Position numbers and translations under genes: made by a program. A DNA stretch of 64,000 nt from NCBI RefSeq assembly GCF_004362865.1, contig NZ_SNYI01000003.1, forward strand, positions 496,001 to 560,000, in the 5' to 3' direction. Below, one piece after another: positions 16,714 through 28,899 of the stretch; position 1 is the stretch's first letter, and the number at the start of each line of letters is the position of its first letter. The notes beneath the pieces are model-generated. The model was not told the origin of the DNA, made no database searches, and saw nothing but the letters and a program-made list of their open reading frames with translations. The DNA comes from Zeaxanthinibacter enoshimensis. Lineage in GTDB: Bacteria; Bacteroidota; Bacteroidia; Flavobacteriales; Flavobacteriaceae.

Positions 16714-16772
16714 AAAAGCCGGAAACAGCGTTCATGATGCCATGGATTGAACGTGATGTTCCGGCTTTTTTT
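16714..16772. terminator. Long bidirectional terminator
   Basis: Outer stem AAAGCCGGAA / TTCCGGCTTT, inner stem CGTTCA / TGAACG, then a T-run. It lies between the SprF-like gene and the convergent 16771-17151 gene. Confidence 0.75.
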
Positions 16773-17151
16773 AAACCTTAACTTCTTCGCCTTCCTTTTT
16801 GTTCAGGATCTCGATGATCCAGTAAATAAGTTGTCCCAGGCCATTGGCAAATAAGAAGAGCAGTATCCATACTACCAGCATATTATTGCCCTGCATGTTC
16901 GGGTTCTTTGCCGCGTGCACAATGTAAAAGACCAGGCTCGCGAAGGAGATCAGCACCACCAGCAGAACCACTATAATAAAGAAAGCAATCCCGCCCATAA
17001 GAAGCCCGTGGACTTCATCCATGTGCCCGTTATCTCCTATGTCTCCCCCTATAGCCAGGATAACAAAGAATAAATAACCGAAGATCAGCAGTATTAAAGA
17101 TACCAGGGGAGCCAGGGCAAAAAAGCCTTGCCAGAATTTATTGTTGAGCAT
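16771..17151 (-). CDS. Small multi-spanning membrane protein
   Basis: 126 residues with three membrane segments: about 10-35, 50-78 and 91-113, ending with a charged tail KKEGEEVKV. The part HAAKNPNMQGNNMLVVWILL followed by a helix resembles the short PLDc_N-type membrane modules, but the match is weak. Function unknown; single-gene unit. Confidence 0.75.
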   Translation of the reverse strand: MLNNKFWQGFFALAPLVSLILLIFGYLFFVILAIGGDIGDNGHMDEVHGLLMGGIAFFIIVVLLVVLISFASLVFYIVHAAKNPNMQGNNMLVVWILLFLFANGLGQLIYWIIEILNKKEGEEVKV

Positions 17152-17227
17152 AATTGGTTGGTTTTTATAAATGTACTAAAAATCTGTTTGCGAGCAGGTT
17201 TGGATCTGTACGCAGCTCATCTAACTA

Positions 17228-17256
17228 AAAAAAGCCTGCTTCTCAGCAGGCCTTTT
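17228..17256 (-). terminator. Terminator of the S9 peptidase gene
   Basis: On the minus strand GCCTGCT-GAGA-AGCAGGC followed by TTTTTTTAG. Confidence 0.85.
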
Positions 17257-17277
17257 CAAGTGTTCAGTATTAACTGA

Positions 17278-19299
17278 TTACTCTTTTTTATACTTATCAA
17301 ACCAGGCAAGGATGGCCGCCACTTTGGCGATCAGTTGGCTTGGTTTACCCGCAATACCATGCGAGGCCCCGGGTATACGGACCATAGCGCTTTCTACACC
17401 TTGTAATTTCAGAGCAGCATAGTATTGCTCAGATTCCGCGATCGGGGTCCTGTAATCTTCTTCCCCGGTAAGCAGCATCGTAGGGGTCGTAACATTCCCT
17501 ACATAGGAGAGAGGCGAACGCTTCATGTAGTGCTCGGGATCTTCCCAGGGTTTGGAAGGGAACCAATATTTACTGAAATATGCAGGGTTATCTGCATATA
17601 ATACGAAACTGTACCAATTGATCACCGGTTTGGCCACTACCGCTGCCCTGAAACGGTCTGTCTTACCAACAATCCAGGCGGTAAGTACTCCACCGCCGCT
17701 TCCACCGGTGACAAAGAGTTGTTCTTCATCCACATTTCCTTTCGCGATCACGGCATCTACACCGGAGATAAGATCCTCGTAGTCATGGTTAGGATAATCG
17801 TGGTGGATCAGGTTACCAAATTCTTCGCCATAGCTGGTACTTCCCCTGGGGTTGGTATAGAGCACCATGTACCCTGAAGCTGCGAACAACTGCAATTCTG
17901 CGGTAAATTCCGGTCCGTAACTGGCAAAAGGTCCGCCGTGGATCTCCAGGATAAGCGGGTATTTTTTAGCGGGGTCATAGTCCGGCGGGTATATCAACCA
18001 GCCCTGGACCTCTCTTTGATCAAAGGAAGATTTCCAGGTAAGTTCTTCTACTTTTCCCAGGTTGCGGTAAGAGAAAAGATCTTCGTTGACCCGGGTGATC
18101 CTGCGGGTGTTTTTACCATTAAATACTGCCAGGTCTGCAGGATGTTCGCTCCCGCCAAGGGTATAAGCCAGGGTGCCGTCTTCGGCTCCGGAGAAACTAC
18201 CGGAGCTGTAAGGTCTTCCTATAGACATTCCGCCAAGATTCTCCACAAGGGTACTGACCTTTCCATCAAGGGTGATATGTCCTACCTTGGTAATGCCCCG
18301 GTCTGTATATTGAAAATACAGGCCTTTCCCATTAGCCGCCCACTGGATATCTTCAATATCCCTGTCAAAATCTGCTGTGAGTAAACGGGGTTCACCTCCC
18401 TCCGCGCTCATCGTATAGAGCTGGCTGAGCTGGTACCCCTGGTAGCGGTCATCGAAACCTGTAAATGCAAGGGTTTTTCCGTCGGGAGAGAGTGCAGGGG
18501 AACGATCCGGTCCTTTCCTGCTGGTAATCGCCTTAACACTTCCATCGTTAAGGGTTAGTTCATAGATCTCACTGTTCAGGGGTTCTTCTTCATGCTCTTC
18601 ATGCAGGTTGGCCGAGAAGTATAATTTGGAACCGTCTTTTGACCAGACCGGGCTGCCATGGTCATATTCAGAATCGGTCAGCTGCCGGGGCGAGCCACCG
18701 TCAGCAGAGATGACAAAGATCTGGTCATTTCCTCCTTTCAGATAACCCTGGCCATCGCCGCGGTAATTCATCTCGTCGATATACTTTGGAGCGTCTGCCC
18801 AGCTGGCACCTTCCGGTTTTTCGGGCATGGTGATGATCGATTTTGATTTTTTCGGGACAAACATGGTAAATGCCAGTTGTTTGTCATCGTGAGACCAACT
18901 CACACCCGATGCGCTCCTGGGAGGATTCAGCAGGGTGTGAATTTCGCGTGTATCGAGCCACATCAGGTAAAGTTTGGTCTTATCGTCTTTCATATTGGAA
19001 CGGAAAACGATCTTTTTACCGTCATGCGACCAGCGAGGCGCAAAATCGCGTTGGTTTCCAGTGGTCAGCGGCCGGTTCTGACTACCGTCAGCATTCACCA
19101 TCCAGAGGTTAGACAGGTTTTTGTCGGTCATAATATCCTTGAAATTTCGGACGTAAATGATCCGTTCTCCATCCGGGGAAACCTGGGGATCAGAAATGTA
19201 TTCCAGGTCAAAGATGTCGAGCAGCTCCATGGGGCTCTTTTTTTGGGACCAGCCGGATAGTGTCACGGCCAGGAATAGGAGCAGGTAAATATTTCTCAT
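17278..19299 (-). CDS. Exported S9-family prolyl oligopeptidase-type peptidase
   Basis: 673 residues. Signal peptide ending LSGWSQ. Residues 25-400 form a WD40/PD40-type beta-propeller (repeats such as DPQVSPDGERIIYVRN, FAPRWSHDGKKIVFRS, RSPALSPDGKTLAFTG). Residues 420-673 form the alpha/beta hydrolase peptidase: GGSGGGVLTAW with nucleophile Ser534, Asp in TGEEDYRTPI and His in PGASHGI. It cleaves short or proline-containing peptides in the periplasm. Monocistronic. Confidence 0.95.
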   Translation of the reverse strand: MRNIYLLLFLAVTLSGWSQKKSPMELLDIFDLEYISDPQVSPDGERIIYVRNFKDIMTDKNLSNLWMVNADGSQNRPLTTGNQRDFAPRWSHDGKKIVFRSNMKDDKTKLYLMWLDTREIHTLLNPPRSASGVSWSHDDKQLAFTMFVPKKSKSIITMPEKPEGASWADAPKYIDEMNYRGDGQGYLKGGNDQIFVISADGGSPRQLTDSEYDHGSPVWSKDGSKLYFSANLHEEHEEEPLNSEIYELTLNDGSVKAITSRKGPDRSPALSPDGKTLAFTGFDDRYQGYQLSQLYTMSAEGGEPRLLTADFDRDIEDIQWAANGKGLYFQYTDRGITKVGHITLDGKVSTLVENLGGMSIGRPYSSGSFSGAEDGTLAYTLGGSEHPADLAVFNGKNTRRITRVNEDLFSYRNLGKVEELTWKSSFDQREVQGWLIYPPDYDPAKKYPLILEIHGGPFASYGPEFTAELQLFAASGYMVLYTNPRGSTSYGEEFGNLIHHDYPNHDYEDLISGVDAVIAKGNVDEEQLFVTGGSGGGVLTAWIVGKTDRFRAAVVAKPVINWYSFVLYADNPAYFSKYWFPSKPWEDPEHYMKRSPLSYVGNVTTPTMLLTGEEDYRTPIAESEQYYAALKLQGVESAMVRIPGASHGIAGKPSQLIAKVAAILAWFDKYKKE

Positions 19300-19394
19300 G
19301 TTCAGGTTTTTGAATTCCTGCCTAAGATATTAAAGAAATCAGAAAAAGGGATAGGAGATATCGACGTTTTGCCGGACAAATTATTCCTGAATGA

Positions 19395-19444
19395 CCGATG
19401 CCCCGGGCTGGCCGGGGCATCGGGTACCTTCCCGAGCGGGAAGG
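19395..19444. repeat. Two adjacent GC-rich hairpins
   Basis: First hairpin CCGATGCCCCGG-GCTGG-CCGGGGCATCGG (perfect 12-bp stem, 19395-19423). Second CCTTCCCG-AG-CGGGAAGG (19427-19444). They lie downstream of the 19482 gene and have no T-run, so they are not a standard terminator; REP-like or RNA-stabilising elements are possible. Confidence 0.6.
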
Positions 19445-19481
19445 CAAAGGAAGGTTGGTCTGAATATTATAAGTATACGTT

Positions 19482-20246
19482 CTACTGCCTGCTGGCTGCA
19501 GTGACCTTGGGGCCAAGACCGCTCAGGTCCGGTCGATAAACCCACAATTCTTCGTGGGTGCCTTCTACCGAGTCTTCTACCTCTTTCAGGAACTTCATAA
19601 AACTACCTTCTCCATGTACAGTCTCAAAATCCTGTGGGAAAGTATCCGGCCTGGACATGTAATTCATATTCCCAAAAAAATCTACCCATGCCAGGTCCTG
19701 GCCTTCCAGGTTAGAAAGTTCATTTACATATACACCGTATGGTTCATCCGGGTACTTCTCCATATAAAGTTTCTGGACCTTTTTGACGATTTCAATAGCC
19801 TGCATCCCTTTAAAAGGCTTTATATCCATAACAAACACAAGGAGGTTGTCTATATCAAAGTCTGCCGGAAAGTTGGAGTATTCAGGGTGAAAGCGCCAGT
19901 AATCCACACGACCTACAGTTTCCGCAAAGGGTGCGATCTTCTGGTTCCAGTGATCATTGTGCTCTTTTTCCGGTTGAATGGGGGTATCCATTGCAGACCA
20001 GGTGGTGGGTCCCATTACCCACATATAACGACCAGCATTCTTACCGCTAGAAACCCAGTACACCCGTGCGCCGTTCCCTCCATCAGCGTGAAATTTCTTA
20101 TTGTGTTCGGCCAGCCCCTGCTCAAATTGCACGATCTTCCCTGGTAACGGGGTCAGTTGCAGGTTGGTGATCACAGGATAATCCGTGCTTCCCTGGGAAA
20201 CTGCCATAAGCGGCAAAAGGAATAGTAGAAAGATAAGATTTTTCAT
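19482..20246 (-). CDS. Exported tandem ferredoxin-fold (ABM/EthD-like) protein
   Basis: 254 residues. Signal peptide LIFLLFLLPLMAVSQG. Two similar halves, each starting with a strand and a long helix: PLPGKIVQFEQGLAEHNKKF (about 33-52), then KPFKGMQAIEIVKKVQKLYM (about 139-158), as in a fused dimer of antibiotic-biosynthesis-monooxygenase-like domains. No cofactor site can be named. Last gene of a six-gene operon. It has the same length and layout as the product of 22400-23164, so the two are distant paralogues. Confidence 0.7.
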   Translation of the reverse strand: MKNLIFLLFLLPLMAVSQGSTDYPVITNLQLTPLPGKIVQFEQGLAEHNKKFHADGGNGARVYWVSSGKNAGRYMWVMGPTTWSAMDTPIQPEKEHNDHWNQKIAPFAETVGRVDYWRFHPEYSNFPADFDIDNLLVFVMDIKPFKGMQAIEIVKKVQKLYMEKYPDEPYGVYVNELSNLEGQDLAWVDFFGNMNYMSRPDTFPQDFETVHGEGSFMKFLKEVEDSVEGTHEELWVYRPDLSGLGPKVTAASRQ

Positions 20247-20269
20247 AATTGGTATCTTTTAGTTAAATG

Positions 20270-21325
20270 TTATTTATAGGCAATCGCTGCACTGCTGGGA
20301 CCGGTCAGGGGTATCAGGGTAGTTTTCCGGAAACCGGCTTCCCTGGTCCAGCGCGTAAAATCTTCTTCGGTGTAATCTGCACCATCAGCGGTCTCGATCA
20401 ACATGTTCAGGGACATTAATAACCCAAAGCTGTTTTTTCGGCGCTGGTTGTCGATAACGTTCTCTATCGCCACGAATGCCCCCCCTTCCGGCAAAGCATC
20501 ATAGGCTTTGCGGATCAGGAGTTTTTTATCGGCAATACCCCAGTCGTGCAGGATGTTACCCATGGCGATGATATCAGCCTTTGGGAAATCGTCCTTAAAG
20601 AAGTCCCCTGCCCGCACTTCTACCCGTGGCAGGCAGTCTATCCTTTCCATGTTCTCTTTCGCTATACGGGCTACCTTTGGCAGGTCAAAAGTGATGCATT
20701 TCATATGGGGATGCTGAATAGCGACCTGAGCCGACAAGAATCCCCCGGCTCCACCGATATCACAAAAGGTATTGTAGTTCGAAAAATCGAACCGGTTACA
20801 AAATGCCATGAAATTACCCATCTGGAAGCCTCCCATAGCACTGACGAATTCACGCAAACGGTCTTCGTCTTCGTAGAGCGTTTCAAAGAATGGTTTTTCA
20901 CCCTGGGCAGTTTCATTCTGCGGATCCCCGGTTTTAAGCGCCTGCTCCAGGTGCACCCAGAAAGGATATAACCGGTTATTTGCCATCTCCAGCATTCCGC
21001 CGATATAACTCCTTTTATGTTTATCCAGGAAGGCGTCTGTATCTGCCGTATTACTGTAAAGGGCATTTTCCTTTAAACCTTCTCTTTCAAGAAATCCGAG
21101 TGACACCAGAGCATCCAGGAAGTCGTAGACTGCCCTGGGATGCAGATGTAATTTCTTCTGGATCTTATGCGCAGGGACTTTCCCCTTAGAGAGATAGGTA
21201 AATAGTTCCAGTTTTACCGCGGTAAGCAATACTTTGGAGGCCCAGAAAGCCATCCCTGTCTCCATGATCTTTGCCGGGTTGGGCGCCTGCCTTGTTTCGG
21301 CTTTTTTTTTGGTAAGTACCTTCAT
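20270..21325 (-). CDS. SAM-dependent O-methyltransferase (family 2)
   Basis: 351 residues, cytoplasmic. N-terminal winged-helix dimerisation domain (MAFWASKVLLTAVKLELFTY, LHPRAVYDFLDALVSLGFL), then the methyltransferase fold with SAM motif FCDIGGAGGFLSA and the catalytic-region NILHDWGIADKK. This is the plant/polyketide type of small-molecule O-methyltransferase (CrtF, acetylserotonin-type), acting on a hydroxyl of an aromatic or isoprenoid molecule. It is the only gene of the operon whose product lacks an export signal. Confidence 0.92.
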   Translation of the reverse strand: MKVLTKKKAETRQAPNPAKIMETGMAFWASKVLLTAVKLELFTYLSKGKVPAHKIQKKLHLHPRAVYDFLDALVSLGFLEREGLKENALYSNTADTDAFLDKHKRSYIGGMLEMANNRLYPFWVHLEQALKTGDPQNETAQGEKPFFETLYEDEDRLREFVSAMGGFQMGNFMAFCNRFDFSNYNTFCDIGGAGGFLSAQVAIQHPHMKCITFDLPKVARIAKENMERIDCLPRVEVRAGDFFKDDFPKADIIAMGNILHDWGIADKKLLIRKAYDALPEGGAFVAIENVIDNQRRKNSFGLLMSLNMLIETADGADYTEEDFTRWTREAGFRKTTLIPLTGPSSAAIAYK

Positions 21326-21339
21326 CGGAACAGCAGCGA

Positions 21340-21855
21340 TTAATTGTTCATTTCTTCTGCGGCAGCTTTGTCGGCTGCGATCTTGTTCATGATCCTTATG
21401 AGCCCCGCGGTGTCATAGTAGGCGTGTTCTTCCACGACCTTCCCGTCTTTGAATTCGAGCGTAACATGTACAGGAACCACCAGGGAAGTATCCTTCTCTT
21501 TAAAAGTGGCTTCCCAATTACCCCAGAAATTCACCCATCTCTCATCTTTATCATCAATGATCATTTCATAATACTGATCGTTATCCTGGAAGCCGTAACT
21601 CTGGTAACCGGCAGTGCCTTCCTGAAAACTTTTAACGAAGTCAGAAGCCGAGATGGCACGGGTACTATTGTGGTAGATCTTTGCCGTATCGGCGTAATGG
21701 GCTTGCATGGCCTTCCAATCGCCTTTCTCATAATCCCCGATCAGGGCTTTGGTCTGGTCTATTTCAGGTGAGGAAGAAAAATAACGATCAGGCTTTTCTT
21801 CCTTGCAACCCCATAAAAGGAGAAGCGATAATACTAGAACACTTAAAGTTTTCAT
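21340..21855 (-). CDS. SnoaL/NTF2-like lipoprotein
   Basis: 171 residues from ATG 21855 (the frame continues to a GTG at 21891, which would overlap the cupin gene). Lipobox LLLLWGCKEE. The domain from about residue 30 has the NTF2-like pattern: ALIGDYEKGDWKAMQAHYAD, TAKIYHNSTRAISASDFVKS, then four strands (RWVNFWGNWEATF, VVPVHVTLEFKDGKVVEEHA). SnoaL-like folds act as cyclases or binding proteins; here it is exported and membrane-anchored. 4 nt after the cupin gene, 14 nt before the methyltransferase gene. Confidence 0.85.
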   Translation of the reverse strand: MKTLSVLVLSLLLLWGCKEEKPDRYFSSSPEIDQTKALIGDYEKGDWKAMQAHYADTAKIYHNSTRAISASDFVKSFQEGTAGYQSYGFQDNDQYYEMIIDDKDERWVNFWGNWEATFKEKDTSLVVPVHVTLEFKDGKVVEEHAYYDTAGLIRIMNKIAADKAAAEEMNN

Positions 21856-21859
21856 ATGT

Positions 21860-22258
21860 TTAGTTTTTAGGTTTGTGCATTTTATGGTCACAGGATTTCA
21901 GTTCCACCAGGATAAGCTCCATGGGTTCACTGCCATTGTTCTGGGGAAGGTGGGTGGCTTCCGGTGTGAACATGGCCGTCCCCGCTTTATTCTTGTCCTC
22001 TATCATACTCCCATCAGGTAAGGTCATCATCCCATTGCTTTCCGTAAGCATTACGGCTACTGCATCCGGATGCTGGTGCATGACCGATTTCTCGCCCGGG
22101 CCATATTTTATCCTCAGTACCCGGACCTGGTCGTTCTCGAATTCTACAGAGTAGTGCTCAGGATCTGCCTCTACCGCATCCTGTGCCTGTATTTCCGGTG
22201 TCCAGAATCCGATTAAGCACAGCAACACACCCGGCAGTGCGAATTTTAATGTTCTCAT
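21860..22258 (-). CDS. Exported single-domain cupin
   Basis: 132 residues. Signal peptide ending TPEIQAQ. Cupin motif 1 HQHPDAVAVMLTESNGMMTL with two histidines, and motif 2 around AGTAMFTPEATHLPQNNG. The metal-ligand set is partial (HxH-type plus a later His), so a metal enzyme or a pure binding protein are both possible. Starts after a 141-nt gap holding a strong hairpin. Confidence 0.85.
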   Translation of the reverse strand: MRTLKFALPGVLLCLIGFWTPEIQAQDAVEADPEHYSVEFENDQVRVLRIKYGPGEKSVMHQHPDAVAVMLTESNGMMTLPDGSMIEDKNKAGTAMFTPEATHLPQNNGSEPMELILVELKSCDHKMHKPKN

Positions 22259-22303
22259 AGTGTAGTTTGATTAAAAATTAAATAGTGAGCATTACACTTT
22301 ATT

Positions 22304-22367
22304 TCACCTGGAAAACCTTCCCGGGATAGCAGAGCCATGGTCGGCAGCTCAAGCTATTCCCAGGTGA
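22304..22367. repeat. Nested inverted repeats inside the 19.5-23.7 kb operon
   Basis: Outer arms TCACCTGG (22304-22311) and CCAGGTGA (22360-22367), inner arms GGGATAGC and GCTATTCCC (one bulge), innermost GAGC and GCTC. The outer and inner stems share bases and cannot both form fully. It lies in the leader of the cupin gene. No T-run, so it may be an attenuator, a processing site or an RNA-stability element. Confidence 0.5.
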
Positions 22368-22399
22368 TTTGCTTCTCCAGGTAAATAAAGAGGTCTGAC

Positions 22400-23164
22400 T
22401 TATTGTTTAGGACTATAGGCCAGGTCTGAACGCATTGTTCCGGTTACAACTTCCATTCCGCTCATATACTGGCTCATCTCGTCAAACAAGGGTTTGGCCT
22501 CTTCTCCCAACAAGCTGCGATTGGCTACGGCCTGTTGTTCGTAGCTCAGGGCATCCTTGGCGGCAATGGCAACCAGGAAATAGTCTTCCGGCGCACCAAA
22601 ACCACTCCGGTAAACCCGGTAGCTTACCTTAGATCCTTTATCCTGGTAGAGCTTCTTGATTTTTTTGAAGTTTTCGGCTAATTTCCCACGATTAGCAGGA
22701 GTAGTATAGACATAATAGAACTTCCGGAAATCCTGCCCCTCGGGGGTCTGGTTGATTCCTTCTGGCATATAGGTGAGTTTTTTATCCAGGTGGATGACGT
22801 AATCAAAATGCTTGTCGTAATAGTCGTTCATCTCGCTGAAGAGACTGCCCATCTTGTCTGAACCCATCTTCTCTGCCAGGGAGGCAAATACGGGCCGGTC
22901 CAGGGAAGCCATATTGTCTATTTGTCCCACATAGAGATAACGGTAATCATCGGTCTGGGTTGTGATCCACTGCTCGTCCTGGATATTATGAGCTTTGAGC
23001 TCGCTGACAAGTTTCTTATTAACATTTTCATACTTGTTCACCATGGCTGGTTTTACATGGTCTTCGTGAACCCAGAAACTCTGGTAATCGGCATCTGATT
23101 GCCCCTGCATTAATGTTGAGGAGAGAAAAAGGAGGGCTAATAAAAGTCTGAATGGTGTTCTCAT
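22400..23164 (-). CDS. Exported tandem ferredoxin-fold (ABM/EthD-like) protein
   Basis: 254 residues. Signal peptide LLLALLFLSSTLMQGQS. Two internal halves with the same layout: HEDHVKPAMVNKYENVNKKL (about residue 33) and TTPANRGKLAENFKKIKKLY (about 149), each followed by a strand such as YRYLYVGQ or EDYFLVAI. Fused-dimer alpha/beta-barrel architecture; the second half of the 19482 gene looks alike. No active-site residues can be assigned. Second gene of the operon. Confidence 0.7.
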   Translation of the reverse strand: MRTPFRLLLALLFLSSTLMQGQSDADYQSFWVHEDHVKPAMVNKYENVNKKLVSELKAHNIQDEQWITTQTDDYRYLYVGQIDNMASLDRPVFASLAEKMGSDKMGSLFSEMNDYYDKHFDYVIHLDKKLTYMPEGINQTPEGQDFRKFYYVYTTPANRGKLAENFKKIKKLYQDKGSKVSYRVYRSGFGAPEDYFLVAIAAKDALSYEQQAVANRSLLGEEAKPLFDEMSQYMSGMEVVTGTMRSDLAYSPKQ

Positions 23165-23207
23165 GATCTTGAATGTTTATTAATTAGTTATCTGTTATTA
23201 TTGGTAT

Positions 23208-23738
23208 TTATTCCAGCATTGGCGGGGTAAGGGTATACCCCAGTTGCTGCAGTAATTCTAATTCATTGTAATAGACCTGTTCTTCTGTCATTCTCCCATT
23301 AGGGTCAAATCGTATCCAGGAAATGCCGGATACATTGATCTTTTTGCCGGTCGCAGGTGTTTCCCCGAATACTCCGGTATTGGTTCCTTCTGCTTTCCAT
23401 TCTACGATCCTGTCCCGGTCTTTGCCGGCCAGGCCGGTGATCTTTATTTCCAGGTCTGGAAAGCCTTTAAAAAAGACCTGCATATTAGACTGCAGTTCCC
23501 GCTGGGTTGAGCTCACCCTGATGCCATTCATACTTCTTTTAAAACCGGAACTGGTCAATTCTTTCAGGAGCAGTGTATCCTTAAGATTCCAGCTTTTTTC
23601 CACATAGGCCCTCAACGTATGTTGCACAATACTGTCCTGTGGCTGCTCACTTGCGAATTCATCGCGGTTATTTTCCCCTGAACCACAGCAATACAGGAAA
23701 CAGCCCATCCAAATAGCTAATCCTCTGGCGATTTTCAT
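23208..23738 (-). CDS. SnoaL-like ester cyclase-type lipoprotein
   Basis: 176 residues. Lipobox FLYCCGSG. The domain matches the SnoaL-like polyketide cyclase pattern: LRAYVEKSWNLKDTLLLKEL, QVFFKGFPDLEIKITGL, then RIVEWKAEGTNTGVFGETPA, GKKINVSGISWIRFD and GRMTEEQVYYNELELLQQLG. The phrase ATGKKI...G is very typical of SnoaL-like proteins. First gene of the operon, divergent from the TPR histidine kinase gene. Confidence 0.9.
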   Translation of the reverse strand: MKIARGLAIWMGCFLYCCGSGENNRDEFASEQPQDSIVQHTLRAYVEKSWNLKDTLLLKELTSSGFKRSMNGIRVSSTQRELQSNMQVFFKGFPDLEIKITGLAGKDRDRIVEWKAEGTNTGVFGETPATGKKINVSGISWIRFDPNGRMTEEQVYYNELELLQQLGYTLTPPMLE

Positions 23739-23933
23739 TGTAAACGGTTATATGTATCGTTCTGAGCCTTCCCGCACCGCTAAGCAATAACATTCATAAC
23801 TCTGCTTAAAGATGCATTGGACGAACCGTATCTAATTATGTCCGAAGCATTTAAAAAACTTATCGGGGCCGGAGGAATCAAGATATTTTGTATCTTACTT
23901 ATCCTCATTTCCCCCGGTGAGCAATCAACCGAA

Positions 23934-25895
23934 ATGAGAACACTTACTGTAAATCGTTGTATCCTGTTATTCCTGGGCCTTATAATCGGTATTCAGGGAA
24001 TGGCTCAGCTTGTAGATCCGGACCGGAAACCGGTATACCAAAGAGTGTTCACCGAAACGGATAATTTTGGTCCTTCTTACCTTGAAAGCCTTGAAGCTGC
24101 GCTGTCTGCGCCGATCACCGACTCTGTCCGTACCCTTATCCTTTACGACCTCGCTTATTACTGGCACAGCAGGAACCTGAAGAAGGCTTTGCAATTTTCA
24201 GAATTGGGAATCAGCCGTTCCATCCGGCAAAAGGATACGGTATGGAAAGCTAAATTCCAGGGGGTAATGGCTGCTGTTCTTCTCAGGATGGAAGCCCTGG
24301 ACGAGGCTATGATCATATTGAGAGAAGCAGCCCAGGTGTTACCAGAGTCCGAAAAACCATTCCTCTATACCCAGATGGGCTACGTCTACGAGCGAAAAGG
24401 TAAGTTAGACCTGGCGACGGATTACGCTTTAAAAACTCTTGAACTGGGAAATCAGCTAGGGGATGAACGCGCTATGGCAGTCGCCTACAGCGATCTCAGC
24501 AATATTTTTTGGAAACAACAGAAATATGAACAGGCACTCCGGTACGGGCTGGAATCGGTCAGCCTGTTTGAATCCAGGGGACTGCAGGACCTCGATTACG
24601 ATTTTACCCTGTACGTGGTCGGTAATAGTTATCTGGCGCTTGGTGACCGCGAACAGGCACGCAATTATTACGAGCATGCCATAGCCATCGGGGAACGATA
24701 CGGGTTCTTTAACAACCTGAGTGATGTATATATTTCCATGGTCGATCTCTATTCCCTCTCCAATAATTACGAGCAAGCTGAGCTCTCAGGTGTAAAGGCG
24801 CTGGAATATGCCAACCTGCTAGACAACAATTTTATGGTGATGCGCTGCTACCTCGCAATAGGGAAGATGCAGAATTTACAGGGAAAATATATTTCCGCCA
24901 TAGAAAGCCTGGAAAAATGCATACAGGTAGCCACCATAGACTTTCACGATTCTTACTACCTCTCCCACGCTTATGAGGCTCTCGGGAGGTCTTATGCGGG
25001 TAATCACCAGTACCAGGAAGCCTATGCTGCACTGGAGATGTATGACAAGTACAAGAACGAAGTATTCACGGCCGAAGCGGATAACAGGACCTCTGTGCTG
25101 CAAACTGAATATAAACTTGCCGAGAAAGAGTCGACCATCCAGGAACAACAATACAGGTTGCAGAGGCAACAGGCACGCCAGACCCTGATCATCATCGTGG
25201 CAATACTGTTGTTTTTATTCCTGTTGTTACTTTACAAATCGGTCAAGAGCAACAGCCGGAAAAATCGCTTACTGCAGCAACAGAACCGGGAAAAGGAATT
25301 TTTACTCAAGGAAATCCATCACCGGGTCAAAAATAACCTCGAGATCATCTCCAGTCTTCTTTCCCTGCAATCGGCCAAAATAAACGATCCTAAGATCGCT
25401 GAAGCTATGGATAAAAGTCAGCAACGGGTGCACAGCATGAGTCTGATCCATCAAAAACTTTATAAAGGGAAAAGTCTTTCCTCCATAGAAATGAAAGAGT
25501 ATTTTGAAAACCTGGGCGAGCATATTGTGAACACCCACGGGGCAGATGGCAGGGTGCGTGTCATGTGCAAGATGGAACCACATGAACTTCATATAGACCT
25601 GGCAATCCCTATAGGTCTGATCGTTAATGAATTACTGACAAACTCATTAAAATATGCATTTCCGGGTAACAGGCCCGGAATCATAGTGATATCCCTGCAA
25701 CAGATAGAAGGAATCGTCTACCTGGAGATTTCTGATAACGGAATAGGTAAAAGCACCCATACCCCGAATACAGGAACGGGATTTGGTACCCAGCTGATCG
25801 AGTTACTCACCCGGCAACTGGATGGAAAAATGCGGCTTAACCAAAGGCCGGGAACCTCATTTACATTCGAATTCAACCCACCAAAAGCAGCTTAA
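23934..25895 (+). CDS. TPR sensor histidine kinase (HisKA_2 type)
   Basis: About 653 residues. ATG 23934 gives a signal sequence (RCILLFLGLIIGIQGMAQ); the frame is open to 23817 but that part fits poorly. Extracytoplasmic TPR array about residues 60-400 (FQGVMAAVLLRMEALDEAMI, ALRYGLESVSLFESRG and others), membrane helix about 430-448 (LIIIVAILLFLFLLLLY), then the HisKA_2 box KEIHHRVKNNLEIISSLLSL with the phosphorylated His at about 462, and HATPase motifs NELLTNSLKYAF and ISDNGIG. TPR ligands are peptides or proteins. 2 nt before its regulator gene. Confidence 0.93.
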   Translation: MRTLTVNRCILLFLGLIIGIQGMAQLVDPDRKPVYQRVFTETDNFGPSYLESLEAALSAPITDSVRTLILYDLAYYWHSRNLKKALQFSELGISRSIRQKDTVWKAKFQGVMAAVLLRMEALDEAMIILREAAQVLPESEKPFLYTQMGYVYERKGKLDLATDYALKTLELGNQLGDERAMAVAYSDLSNIFWKQQKYEQALRYGLESVSLFESRGLQDLDYDFTLYVVGNSYLALGDREQARNYYEHAIAIGERYGFFNNLSDVYISMVDLYSLSNNYEQAELSGVKALEYANLLDNNFMVMRCYLAIGKMQNLQGKYISAIESLEKCIQVATIDFHDSYYLSHAYEALGRSYAGNHQYQEAYAALEMYDKYKNEVFTAEADNRTSVLQTEYKLAEKESTIQEQQYRLQRQQARQTLIIIVAILLFLFLLLLYKSVKSNSRKNRLLQQQNREKEFLLKEIHHRVKNNLEIISSLLSLQSAKINDPKIAEAMDKSQQRVHSMSLIHQKLYKGKSLSSIEMKEYFENLGEHIVNTHGADGRVRVMCKMEPHELHIDLAIPIGLIVNELLTNSLKYAFPGNRPGIIVISLQQIEGIVYLEISDNGIGKSTHTPNTGTGFGTQLIELLTRQLDGKMRLNQRPGTSFTFEFNPPKAA

Positions 25896-25897
25896 TC

Positions 25898-26632
25898 ATG
25901 AAAGAAACAACACGAGTACTGATCGTAGAAGATGATATGATCATCGCTGCCAATATCTCCCTACAACTCAGCCGGCTTGGTTACGAGATCACCGGGATAG
26001 AATCCAGGGGGGAAGAGGCGGTACTGCATGCCAGGCGCAATGCCCCGGATATCATCCTGATGGATATCCATCTGAAAGGGGAGTTGGACGGTATAGAAAC
26101 GGCCCTACTGATTCAGGAAGAGCAGGACATTCCCATTATCTATCTCACCGCGAATAATGACGAAGTGACTTTTAACCGGGCTCGTATTACCCATCCCCAT
26201 GCTTTCGTATCCAAGCCTTTCGGAAAGCTGAATTTAGAAAGGACGGTGGCGCTCGTGACCGAGCAGATAAAAGGCCGGACAATTCCGGAAAACGTTGTTC
26301 CGAGCGGGCTACGTTTCCTTGAAGACAGGATATTTATTCGGCATCACGGGAGAATGGTCAAGTTAATGTTACAGGATATACTGTATATCGAGGCAGAAAG
26401 GAATTACTGCAACATTGTAACAGATAACGGGCGTTTCCTTGTTGTGAGTACCCTGAAAACCCTGGAGAAGGAATTACCCTCCTCCCATTTTCTCAGGGTT
26501 CATCGCTCTTATGTGGTAAATATCTCCAAACTGGATGTGCTGGCTGAAGGACACCTGGAGATCTCGCGGAAAGTTATTCCCGTAAGCAGGTCGCACCGGG
26601 AATCCCTGGTCGGCAGGTTACACACCATTTAA
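25898..26632 (+). CDS. LytTR-family response regulator
   Basis: 244 residues. Receiver domain 1-120 with acidic pocket VEDD, phospho-acceptor Asp in IILMDIHLKGELDG, and Lys in VSKPFGK. LytTR DNA-binding domain about 140-244 (DILYIEAERNYCNIVTDNGR, THFLRVHRSYVVN-like HFLRVHRSYVVNISKLD). It is translated with the TPR kinase. As it is divergent from the SnoaL/cupin/methyltransferase operon, that operon is a likely target (inference). Confidence 0.95.
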   Translation: MKETTRVLIVEDDMIIAANISLQLSRLGYEITGIESRGEEAVLHARRNAPDIILMDIHLKGELDGIETALLIQEEQDIPIIYLTANNDEVTFNRARITHPHAFVSKPFGKLNLERTVALVTEQIKGRTIPENVVPSGLRFLEDRIFIRHHGRMVKLMLQDILYIEAERNYCNIVTDNGRFLVVSTLKTLEKELPSSHFLRVHRSYVVNISKLDVLAEGHLEISRKVIPVSRSHRESLVGRLHTI

Positions 26633-27564: not shown

Positions 27565-28899
27565 ATGGATTCTATTGGTAAAATCTTCAGAGCGGGCCTG
27601 TTGATAGGTTTCCTGATCACCCTGGTCTTCATGGGGATCGAGTTGATCATGGGCAGGGCCATTGAGCTCAATGACAGCTTCTGGACCGGGGTTGGTTATA
27701 ATTTCCTCTACTCGGTGGTATTGACATTTATTAATGCTTCTTTCTTTAATTACCTGAATCATAAGGTCAAATGGGGCAAATACAAACGGTTCCGCCTGTG
27801 GATAGGAATATTGGGGAGTATACTGCTGACCATGGGGGGTATTTTCATGATAAGGGTTGCGGTAGAAATGACTATGGGTGGAGAGACCTGGAGCGAGTTC
27901 GTCGCTACGGAGAAAAGAATACATTACGTCATAGCCCTGATCATTACCCTGGTTGCTTCCATGATCTTTCATACCTTCTATTTCTATAAGCACTGGCAGG
28001 AAAGTAAAGTAAAGGAACAACAGATCATCGCCGGTACGGCATCGGCCAAATTTGATGCCCTGAAAAATCAACTGGATCCGCATTTTCTTTTCAATAGTCT
28101 TAATGTGCTCACCAGCCTGATCGAGGAAGATCCGAAACAGGCCCAGAATTTCACCACTTCACTATCAAAGGTTTACCGCTATATACTTGAACAAAAACAT
28201 AAGGATGTCGTCAGCCTGAGTGAAGAGTTGCAGTTTGCGAAGACGTATGTATCCCTGCTCAAAATGAGATTCGAAGACAGTATTGTTTTTGAGATGCCCG
28301 AGGAGGTAAAGAACCCCGATGCAAAACTGGTTCCCCTCTCCCTGCAACTCCTGTTGGAGAACGCTGTTAAGCACAACGTCGTTACGGCTTCGAGGCCGTT
28401 GCTGATCAGGGTATATGAAGAGGATGGGGTGCTGGTCATTGCCAACAACCTGCAGCCTAAACAGGTAATCAAGAAAAGCAGTGGAGTGGGGCTTCGTAAC
28501 ATCCGTCAGCGATACGAGATCCTGAGTTCCCGGAAAATGGAGATCCGGCAGACCGCTGATAGTTTTGAAGTGAGGCTGCCATTGCTTACCCGGAAAGTCA
28601 CCGATGCGGTGTCTCAGGAGACCTATATAGAAAGCAAAAGATATCTGAAGGCCAAGGAACGGGTAGAGGCGATAAAGGGCTTCTACGGTAATCTTACGGC
28701 GTATTGCCTGGTGATACCTTTTCTTGTCTTTATCAATTATAAAACCACTACCGATATTCCCTGGTCCCTGTTTTCTGCCGTAGGATGGGGGATAGGACTG
28801 GTATTCCATGCCTCAGAAGCTTTCGGCCGGGGCCTGGTATTAGGTAAGAAGTGGGAGGAGCGAAAGATACAGGAGTTCATACAGAAAGATAAATCCTGA
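27565..28899 (+). CDS. LytS-type histidine kinase with C-terminal 2TM domain
   Basis: 444 residues. Four membrane helices in residues 8-145, then a His_kinase (PF06580-type) domain: KNQLDPHFLFNSLNVLTSLI with phosphorylated His173, and an ATPase part with LLLENAVKHNVVTA and SSGVGLRNIRQRYEIL. Residues about 355-444 are a 2TM domain: YLKAKERVEAIKGFYGNL, two membrane helices, GWGIGLVFHA, and GKKWEERKIQEFIQKDKS. The extra 2TM module at the end of a kinase is the odd part. First gene of a five-gene operon. Confidence 0.95.
   Translation: MDSIGKIFRAGLLIGFLITLVFMGIELIMGRAIELNDSFWTGVGYNFLYSVVLTFINASFFNYLNHKVKWGKYKRFRLWIGILGSILLTMGGIFMIRVAVEMTMGGETWSEFVATEKRIHYVIALIITLVASMIFHTFYFYKHWQESKVKEQQIIAGTASAKFDALKNQLDPHFLFNSLNVLTSLIEEDPKQAQNFTTSLSKVYRYILEQKHKDVVSLSEELQFAKTYVSLLKMRFEDSIVFEMPEEVKNPDAKLVPLSLQLLLENAVKHNVVTASRPLLIRVYEEDGVLVIANNLQPKQVIKKSSGVGLRNIRQRYEILSSRKMEIRQTADSFEVRLPLLTRKVTDAVSQETYIESKRYLKAKERVEAIKGFYGNLTAYCLVIPFLVFINYKTTTDIPWSLFSAVGWGIGLVFHASEAFGRGLVLGKKWEERKIQEFIQKDKS

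Follow-up and report, generated by a model that had tools for sequence, protein, structure and literature searches.

Gene content of the locus

In this study, we examined a 64,000-nucleotide stretch of the Zeaxanthinibacter enoshimensis genome (Flavobacteriaceae; assembly GCF_004362865.1, contig NZ_SNYI01000003.1, positions 496,001 to 560,000 of the forward strand), called the window below, and analyzed within it a cassette of six open reading frames (ORFs), g1-g6, at positions 19482-23738, together with the divergent genes for a sensor histidine kinase and a LytTR response regulator. The original prediction for this region, made from the letters without database searches, had described a set of exported tailoring-enzyme folds around one O-methyltransferase. 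We found a conserved operator between the two gene groups, and sequence comparison, as the sole line of evidence, gives good support to the regulatory circuit in which it would connect them.

All six ORFs lie on the minus strand and, as the ORF list confirmed, in the order that had been predicted. With the start of g4 placed at ATG 21855, as here (the ORF listing has GTG 21891), the gaps between them are, in order, 43, 141, 4, 14 and 23 bp, so that the short spacings described earlier hold for four gaps (4-43 bp) but not for the 141-bp gap between g2 and g3. The first gene behind the operator, g1 (23208..23738), encodes a SnoaL-type protein that matched PF07366 in the Pfam scan with 62 bits (cut-off 28.4) and has SnoL as its nearest solved sequence (E 9e-5); it is a probable lipoprotein with a hydrophobic N-terminus, although its lipobox, read by eye, is not strict. 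It is followed by g2 (22400..23164; 254 aa), a predicted exported tandem ferredoxin-fold protein, and by g3 (21860..22258), a predicted exported cupin-like protein whose likeness to Cupin_2 (PF07883) remained below the cut-off (20 bits vs 27.2), so the cupin fold that had been proposed is a weak assignment. The product of g4 (21340..21855), the commonest partner of g2 in other genomes, is a predicted SnoaL_2/NTF2-like lipoprotein that also missed the SnoaL_2 cut-off (PF12680, 25.7 bits vs 27). The product of g5 (20270..21325) is a COMT-type methyltransferase without export signal, in agreement with the predicted cytoplasmic family-2 enzyme, and exceeded the cut-offs of both Methyltransf_2 (140.9 bits) and Dimerisation (53.7 bits). 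Its best solved relative is RedM (E 5e-83, nearly full length), and the H in its NILHDW motif aligns with RedM S253, which gives g5 a His at the position usually called catalytic. Finally, g6 (19482..20246) encodes the second predicted exported tandem ferredoxin-fold protein, a distant paralogue of g2.

Export was called from N-termini by eye and from a crude hydrophobicity measure, not a signal-peptide predictor, and by this reading the predicted export pattern of the cassette was borne out. The absence of a synthase beside the cassette was likewise confirmed: a Pfam scan limited to the ten proteins at 16771-26632 identified no ketosynthase/carrier or other synthase among them.

On the plus strand, the kinase gene (23934..25895) and the regulator gene (25898..26632) are divergent from g1-g6, as the ORF list showed, and Pfam confirmed the predicted domains of the pair. 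The kinase contains tetratricopeptide repeats (TPRs), HisKA_2 and HATPase_c, whereas its start, probable signal peptide and transmembrane segment were read from the sequence; the TPR region would be periplasmic, in keeping with the extracytoplasmic sensor suggested before, if the N-terminus is a signal peptide. We consider ATG 23934 a more likely start than the listed TTG 23817, because the latter would overlap the operator and the former puts a signal-peptide-like N-terminus first. The regulator combines a receiver domain (PF00072, 66.6 bits) with a LytTR DNA-binding domain (PF04397, 73.3 bits), both above the curated cut-offs. Beyond the regulator, a 444-aa ORF at 27565-28899 resembles, by eye, a membrane histidine kinase, and a protein family of about the same length (f28; the likeness is one of length) recurs in 10 of 70 clustered loci.

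A conserved operator upstream of the cassette

The operator core, TTCGGACA-N13-TTCGTCC (23819..23846, minus strand), consists of two half-sites that stand 21 bp apart, start to start, and is the only match in the window with fewer than three mismatches. A third, weaker half-site (23860..23867, minus strand) lies 21 bp upstream of the core, and a -7-like promoter box, TTGCTTAG (23780..23787, minus strand), stands at a fixed distance from the operator. The operator was present in all of 17 divergent kinase/cassette intergenic regions, namely the window and 16 loci listed by hand from the neighborhood table, being perfect in 10 and carrying one to three mismatches in 7, which backs the proposed tie of the cassette to the divergent kinase pair. 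In every one of these regions 21 bp was the best half-site spacing, tied with two other spacings in L182. A further locus, L076, was tried as a divergent region and has no cassette gene beside its kinase.

In 199 Flavobacteriaceae genomes, we identified 44 perfect sites in 25 genomes, compared with 5 for a reversed control pattern. The flanks of these sites, which had played no role in their selection, were also conserved: every one of the 44 had G at -18 and A at -14 in the third half-site, and T occurred at +59, +63 and +64 in fractions of 0.89, 0.84 and 0.98, respectively. The three T positions fit the consensus of the Bacteroidota -7 box, and a -33 element was at best weak. The first gene started 43-98 bp beyond the site in 29 of 43 perfect sites (that of the window excluded). 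Judged from this geometry, the operator has the position of a promoter-proximal activator site. To our knowledge, operators of such kind are rarely known in Bacteroidota.

Conservation of the cassette

Relatives of g2 were found in 61 of the 199 genomes, those of g6 in 59 (many of them weak) and those of g5 in 18 (E<=1e-20). Of 63 g2 places listed beyond the window, we took 60, leaving out those in G024, the second one in G005 and a weak one in G104, and counted same-strand neighbors within 4.5 kb of g2: g4 was present in 43 loci, g1 in 14, g6 in 8, g5 in 7 and g3 in 3, and both kinase and regulator stood within 5 kb of g2 in 20. The pair g2-g4 is kept in most loci, and g5 rarely accompanies g2. 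Measured against the refuting conditions that came with the original prediction, the outcome is mixed: the folds hold, weakly for the cupin, but the six genes are seldom kept together.

The original prediction had implied a self-contained six-gene system around one methyltransferase. In its favor, the complete set is kept in the sister species (L092). However, this is the only one of the 60 g2 loci with all six genes, two more having all but the cupin, and the low counts of g5 and g3 near g2 also speak against such a system, which we regard as highly improbable; the neighborhood count ruled out the six-gene unit as a conserved object. A fixed link between g2-g4 and the kinase pair was ruled out as well, by 24 of the 60 g2 loci that lie in a separate conserved chromosomal context with no kinase or regulator there. 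In 19 of these 24 loci (the 24 being L033, L034, L036, L039 and others), g2 is accompanied by g4. The neighbors in this context were annotated in one locus, L033, where g2 (L033:9420-10723) has on one side a block with a Cons_hypoth95 methyltransferase and DUF3822 and on the other a gene resembling DNA polymerase III gamma/tau. Based on the varied neighbor counts and the kinase-free loci, we conclude that g1-g6 are one mosaic cassette of a regulon and not a six-gene machine. In other genomes the cassette gains an epimerase, short-chain dehydrogenases/reductases (SDRs), RidA-like lipoproteins and further NTF2-like proteins.

Relationship between operator and LytTR regulator

A regulator relative at E<=1e-45 was listed once in each of 42 of the 199 genomes; with at most 13 candidates scored per genome, this does not establish that the gene is single-copy. 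Every one of the 25 genomes that have a perfect site falls within these 42 (Fisher 6e-21). We then used a sequence-only site model, R1, trained on the 44 perfect sites, and at the preset cut-off of E<=0.01 it matched in 39 of the 42 regulator genomes. Among the 17 regulator genomes that had given no training site, 14 had a match, compared with 7 of 50 genomes without regulator that were picked by hand (5e-7). At E<=1e-3, a cut-off chosen for these control genomes after the result had been seen, one of the 50 matched. In addition, R1 was applied to 78 methyltransferase loci of named genomes and gave three matches, in the sister species, Maribacter arcticus and Algoriphagus antarcticus. The last species belongs to the class Cytophagia, outside the training family, and has four sites on a 19-kb piece where the methyltransferase and the same kinase/regulator pair (49 and 55% identical, respectively) are also encoded.

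Co-occurrence across genomes does not tell the regulator apart from its kinase or any other gene inherited with it, and the operator could in principle belong to another regulator that co-occurs with the kinase pair, the adjacency of the LytTR gene being incidental. However, the 21-bp register, the AlgR-like core and the promoter-proximal position all fit LytTR proteins, 37 of the 42 genomes have a site (E<=1e-3) no more than 3.5 kb from the regulator gene, and the linkage recurs in Algoriphagus, which make this alternative very unlikely. Comparison of the sites and genomes thus strongly suggests that the LytTR regulator acts at the operator, and it probably activates the genes behind it.

Genes behind the operator

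Many operator sites stand elsewhere in the genome, away from the cassette. We collected a set of 80 first genes, 44 behind perfect sites (window included) and the rest behind 1-mismatch or model sites; the 1-mismatch sites of L263 and L272, which fall within long ORFs and were judged to be chance, and the G078 match (L295) were left out of this set. The 44 genes behind perfect sites included 13 on the NTF2 side (9 g1-type SnoaL and 4 other NTF2-like) and 14 with a ferredoxin fold by sequence or profile (7 g6-type, 4 g2-type, 1 further tandem barrel and 2 single ferredoxin-domain-like). Four more belong to a probable further tandem family by weak profile similarity only, and the remainder comprised 1 methyltransferase, 1 SDR and 11 others. 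From these assignments, the target set appears rich in exported ferredoxin-barrel and NTF2-fold proteins. Among 26 loci chosen solely because of a perfect site, 6 of 26 first genes encoded a relative of one of the six window proteins, vs 3 of 273 other genes (BLAST, p 1.7e-5). An enrichment computed with hidden Markov models built from the first genes themselves (14/28 vs 9/271) was circular and was discarded. A hydrophobic N-terminus, by the crude measure, was commoner in first genes (23/28) than in other genes (113/271).

In the Z. enoshimensis genome, the model sites beyond the window precede a g6 paralogue, an antibiotic biosynthesis monooxygenase (ABM)-like protein (PF03992, 22.9 bits, below the 23.1 cut-off) and an exported 263-aa member of the probable tandem family. 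Perfect sites stand before the g6 paralogue and the ABM-like protein in the sister species. Intradiol dioxygenase-like proteins (PF00775) with N-termini resembling twin-arginine translocation signals were found at L182:7431-8318 and L087:17482-18363, on pieces that also carry a methyltransferase and operator sites. Such a gene lies about 0.7 kb from the methyltransferase in Maribacter arcticus and about 7 kb from it in G025, where a divergent site pair faces the methyltransferase and an exported putative cyclase.

Two further groups of proteins were observed near sites. In G025, a tandem array of many similar membrane proteins (L087:3096-19440 and L296:1-8372; one is DUF6090, the others were recognized by eye) is interrupted by variant operator sites with two mismatches, and the regulon may include this array. 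Besides, an exported family of 208-239 aa is present behind sites at L244:7285-7911, L268:1439-2080 and L289:2743-3462; dirigent/allene-oxide-cyclase matches in two of these three proteins were below the cut-off (E 0.03-0.06).

Fold of the tandem ferredoxin-fold proteins

Neither g2 nor g6 matched any Pfam (E<=0.1) or NCBIfam model, the ABM family PF03992 included. Their structures were modeled from 52 and 19 aligned sequences, respectively, and each model showed two ferredoxin-like halves (mean pLDDT 94.0 for g2 and 87.6 for g6). Thus, the SnoaL and ferredoxin-like folds of the original prediction hold, through Pfam for g1 and through predicted structures for g2 and g6. H33, D35, G101, Y116 and G190 were invariant in the 52 g2 sequences, and H48, H53 and H96 were among the residues invariant in the 19 g6 sequences. 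The g2 and g6 profiles matched each other with an hhalign probability of 96.9, which identified the two proteins as distant paralogues. When solved sequences were searched by profile, g2 gave a single weak match (4dpo, E 0.11) and g6 gave none. In a second-look structural comparison, the g2 model matched the anthrone-oxidase-like protein 5f9p with Z 14.9 and the g6 model the marine metagenome protein 2pgc with Z 15.1, and the best structural relatives of both were tandem barrels, including an anthrone-oxidase-like protein, PenE, sulfur oxygenase reductase and uncharacterized monooxygenase-like proteins. According to these models, g2 and g6 have the dimeric alpha-beta barrel fold with two halves per chain.

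Possible function of the regulon

On balance, we think it reasonably likely that the cassette belongs to the targets of a two-component regulon of activator type, and that the products of this regulon act on small, perhaps aromatic, molecules in the envelope. In such a system, the TPR/HisKA_2 kinase would read an envelope condition through its TPR region, which is periplasmic if the N-terminus is a signal peptide, and would phosphorylate the LytTR regulator. The regulator would then bind the three half-sites in the 21-bp register, just upstream of the promoter with the -7-like box, and switch on g1-g6, and the same protein would serve the further sites elsewhere in the genome. More speculatively, the exported proteins could act outside the cytoplasm by binding or converting compounds that are small, hydrophobic and possibly aromatic, whereas the cytoplasmic methyltransferase and dehydrogenases could handle compounds that enter, the whole forming a defense or scavenging response.

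Besides the kinase-free g2 loci described above, several observations weigh against this scheme. When two mismatches were allowed, the pattern was not above the control in many genomes (among the matches listed), and the genome of Z. enoshimensis itself gave 9 sites vs 22 for the control; therefore only strong sites are trustworthy, and in this genome the sites outside the window have weak scores (E 2e-4 to 3e-3). Three of the 42 regulator genomes have no site (in two of them the regulators are 34% and 37% identical, and in G111 58%), 7 of the 50 genomes without regulator matched at E<=0.01, one of them at 1.9e-5, and the genomes share ancestry, so the p values are overstated. The 3 matches in 78 methyltransferase loci place g5 mostly outside the regulon. 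Moreover, 11 of the 44 first genes fall outside the listed families; they encode, among others, two proteins with discoidin domains, a subtilase-domain protein of 2005 aa and, 371 bp away, a protein that by eye resembles a nucleotide cyclase, and one is a doubtful ORF of 151 aa. Finally, the gap between g2 and g3 (22259..22399, minus strand) contains a strong stem-loop (-44.7 kcal/mol, z -3.9 for the 141 bp), a possible attenuator, terminator or processing site, which may cut g3-g6 off from the operator. In the sister species, this gap has a different, shorter sequence with its own inverted repeat, as seen by eye in a stretch that included some coding sequence.

The chemical half of the scheme is based on the folds, on the invariant His/Asp residues of g2 and His residues of g6, and on the company of tailoring enzymes. 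That the exported products handle small molecules is a possibility to which we give somewhat less than even weight, and that these molecules are aromatic in particular is more tentative still, being drawn from fold analogies, the methyltransferase family and the dioxygenase-like genes on site pieces in two genomes. A serious rival to this half is that the regulon is the same and its exported barrel/NTF2-like proteins are non-catalytic envelope parts, with binding, adhesion, structural or signaling roles in a general envelope or surface-lifestyle response. Many proteins with barrel and NTF2-like folds bind without catalysis, g2 and g6 belong to no curated family, Pfam shows TPRs in the kinase but no known domain for sensing small molecules, and the first genes include the discoidin-domain proteins, the subtilase-domain protein and an SMP-30-like lipoprotein. 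However, the invariant residues just mentioned and the repeated company of methyltransferase, SDR, NmrA, epimerase, RidA-like and dioxygenase-like genes argue against it, and we give this role a real but minor chance.

Alternatively, the cassette could serve, outside the cytoplasm, to make or finish a small molecule for secretion, a signal or something pigment-like, with the core of the pathway elsewhere. The joint occurrence of tailoring-type folds, the presence of PenE and an anthrone-oxidase-like protein among the fold relatives, and the fact that RedM, the closest solved relative of g5, belongs to a bisindole pathway would be consistent with this. On the other hand, no synthase was found in the ten proteins scanned around the cassette, gene content turns over strongly between genomes, and many different first genes stand behind the sites; this explanation therefore appears improbable.

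If the exported proteins of the activator-type regulon do have a chemical role, it might be that of an inducible extracytoplasmic tailoring or detoxification layer against foreign, perhaps algal or microbial aromatic, chemicals in flavobacteria and some relatives, a proposal we put forward with considerable reserve. Equally speculative is its composition: outside the cytoplasm, a variable assortment of tandem barrels, NTF2 folds, cupin, RidA-like protein, ring-cleaving dioxygenase and possible dirigent-like barrels, which would be combined with cytoplasmic methyl-, sulfo- and redox-tailoring. In any case, a single motif of 28 bp with defined flanks identifies a regulator, its targets and its sites in 39 regulator-bearing genomes, and several exported families without a Pfam name are grouped into one functional network. 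Inducers of the promoter would offer a route to the ligand of these families. A six-gene puzzle thereby becomes a testable gene-control network in marine flavobacteria.

Comparison with known systems

The class of the system, a LytTR two-component system, is already known. No paper among those listed from the open-licence literature describes, as judged by title and abstract opening, such an operator of three half-sites, this type of kinase or this set of targets, and a Riemerella two-component paper (PMC5399024) contains no mention of LytTR. The kinase partly matches the NCBIfam models of FimS (E 7.5e-19) and PhyK (E 3.7e-36) but is far below their curated cut-offs (67.4 vs 600 and 124.8 vs 750, respectively).

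Among the products of the cassette, g1 resembles the polyketide-tailoring enzymes SnoaL and SnoL in exceeding the PF07366 cut-off and in having SnoL as nearest solved sequence; it differs in being exported or lipoprotein-like and in the lack of a synthase in the ten neighboring proteins scanned, and its similarity to SnoL is limited to E 9e-5. For g5, the closest known enzyme is RedM, a COMT-type N-methyltransferase of reductasporine biosynthesis (E 5e-83). According to PMC10784701, RedM carries S253 where the family has the residue usually called catalytic, and g5 differs from it in having His there. The proteins g2 and g6 share two ferredoxin-like halves with tandem dimeric alpha-beta barrels such as 5f9p, PenE and sulfur oxygenase reductase (Z 12-15), whereas they have at most 14% identity to these (among the matches listed), are predicted to be exported and have no Pfam match. 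They also resemble HemQ/chlorite dismutase, with Z of about 8-9 to coproheme decarboxylase/chlorite dismutase, a likeness that is a fold match alone.

With known LytTR regulons, such as those of AlgR in Pseudomonas and HdrR/BrsR in Streptococcus mutans, the system shares the LytTR domain and an operator just upstream of the promoter. According to PMC6193735, LytTR regulatory system operons have 9-bp repeats mostly 12 bp apart upstream of -35, so that the half-sites found here, 21 bp start to start, are spaced as in most of those operons. The AlgR core, given as CCGTTCGTC in PMC4064291, has GTTCGTC in common with the third half-site of the window; by the same paper, AlgR sites are not necessarily spaced repeats. 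What distinguishes the present system from the AlgR and HdrR/BrsR regulons is its three half-sites, its TPR/HisKA_2 kinase partner and its exported barrel/NTF2-like targets.

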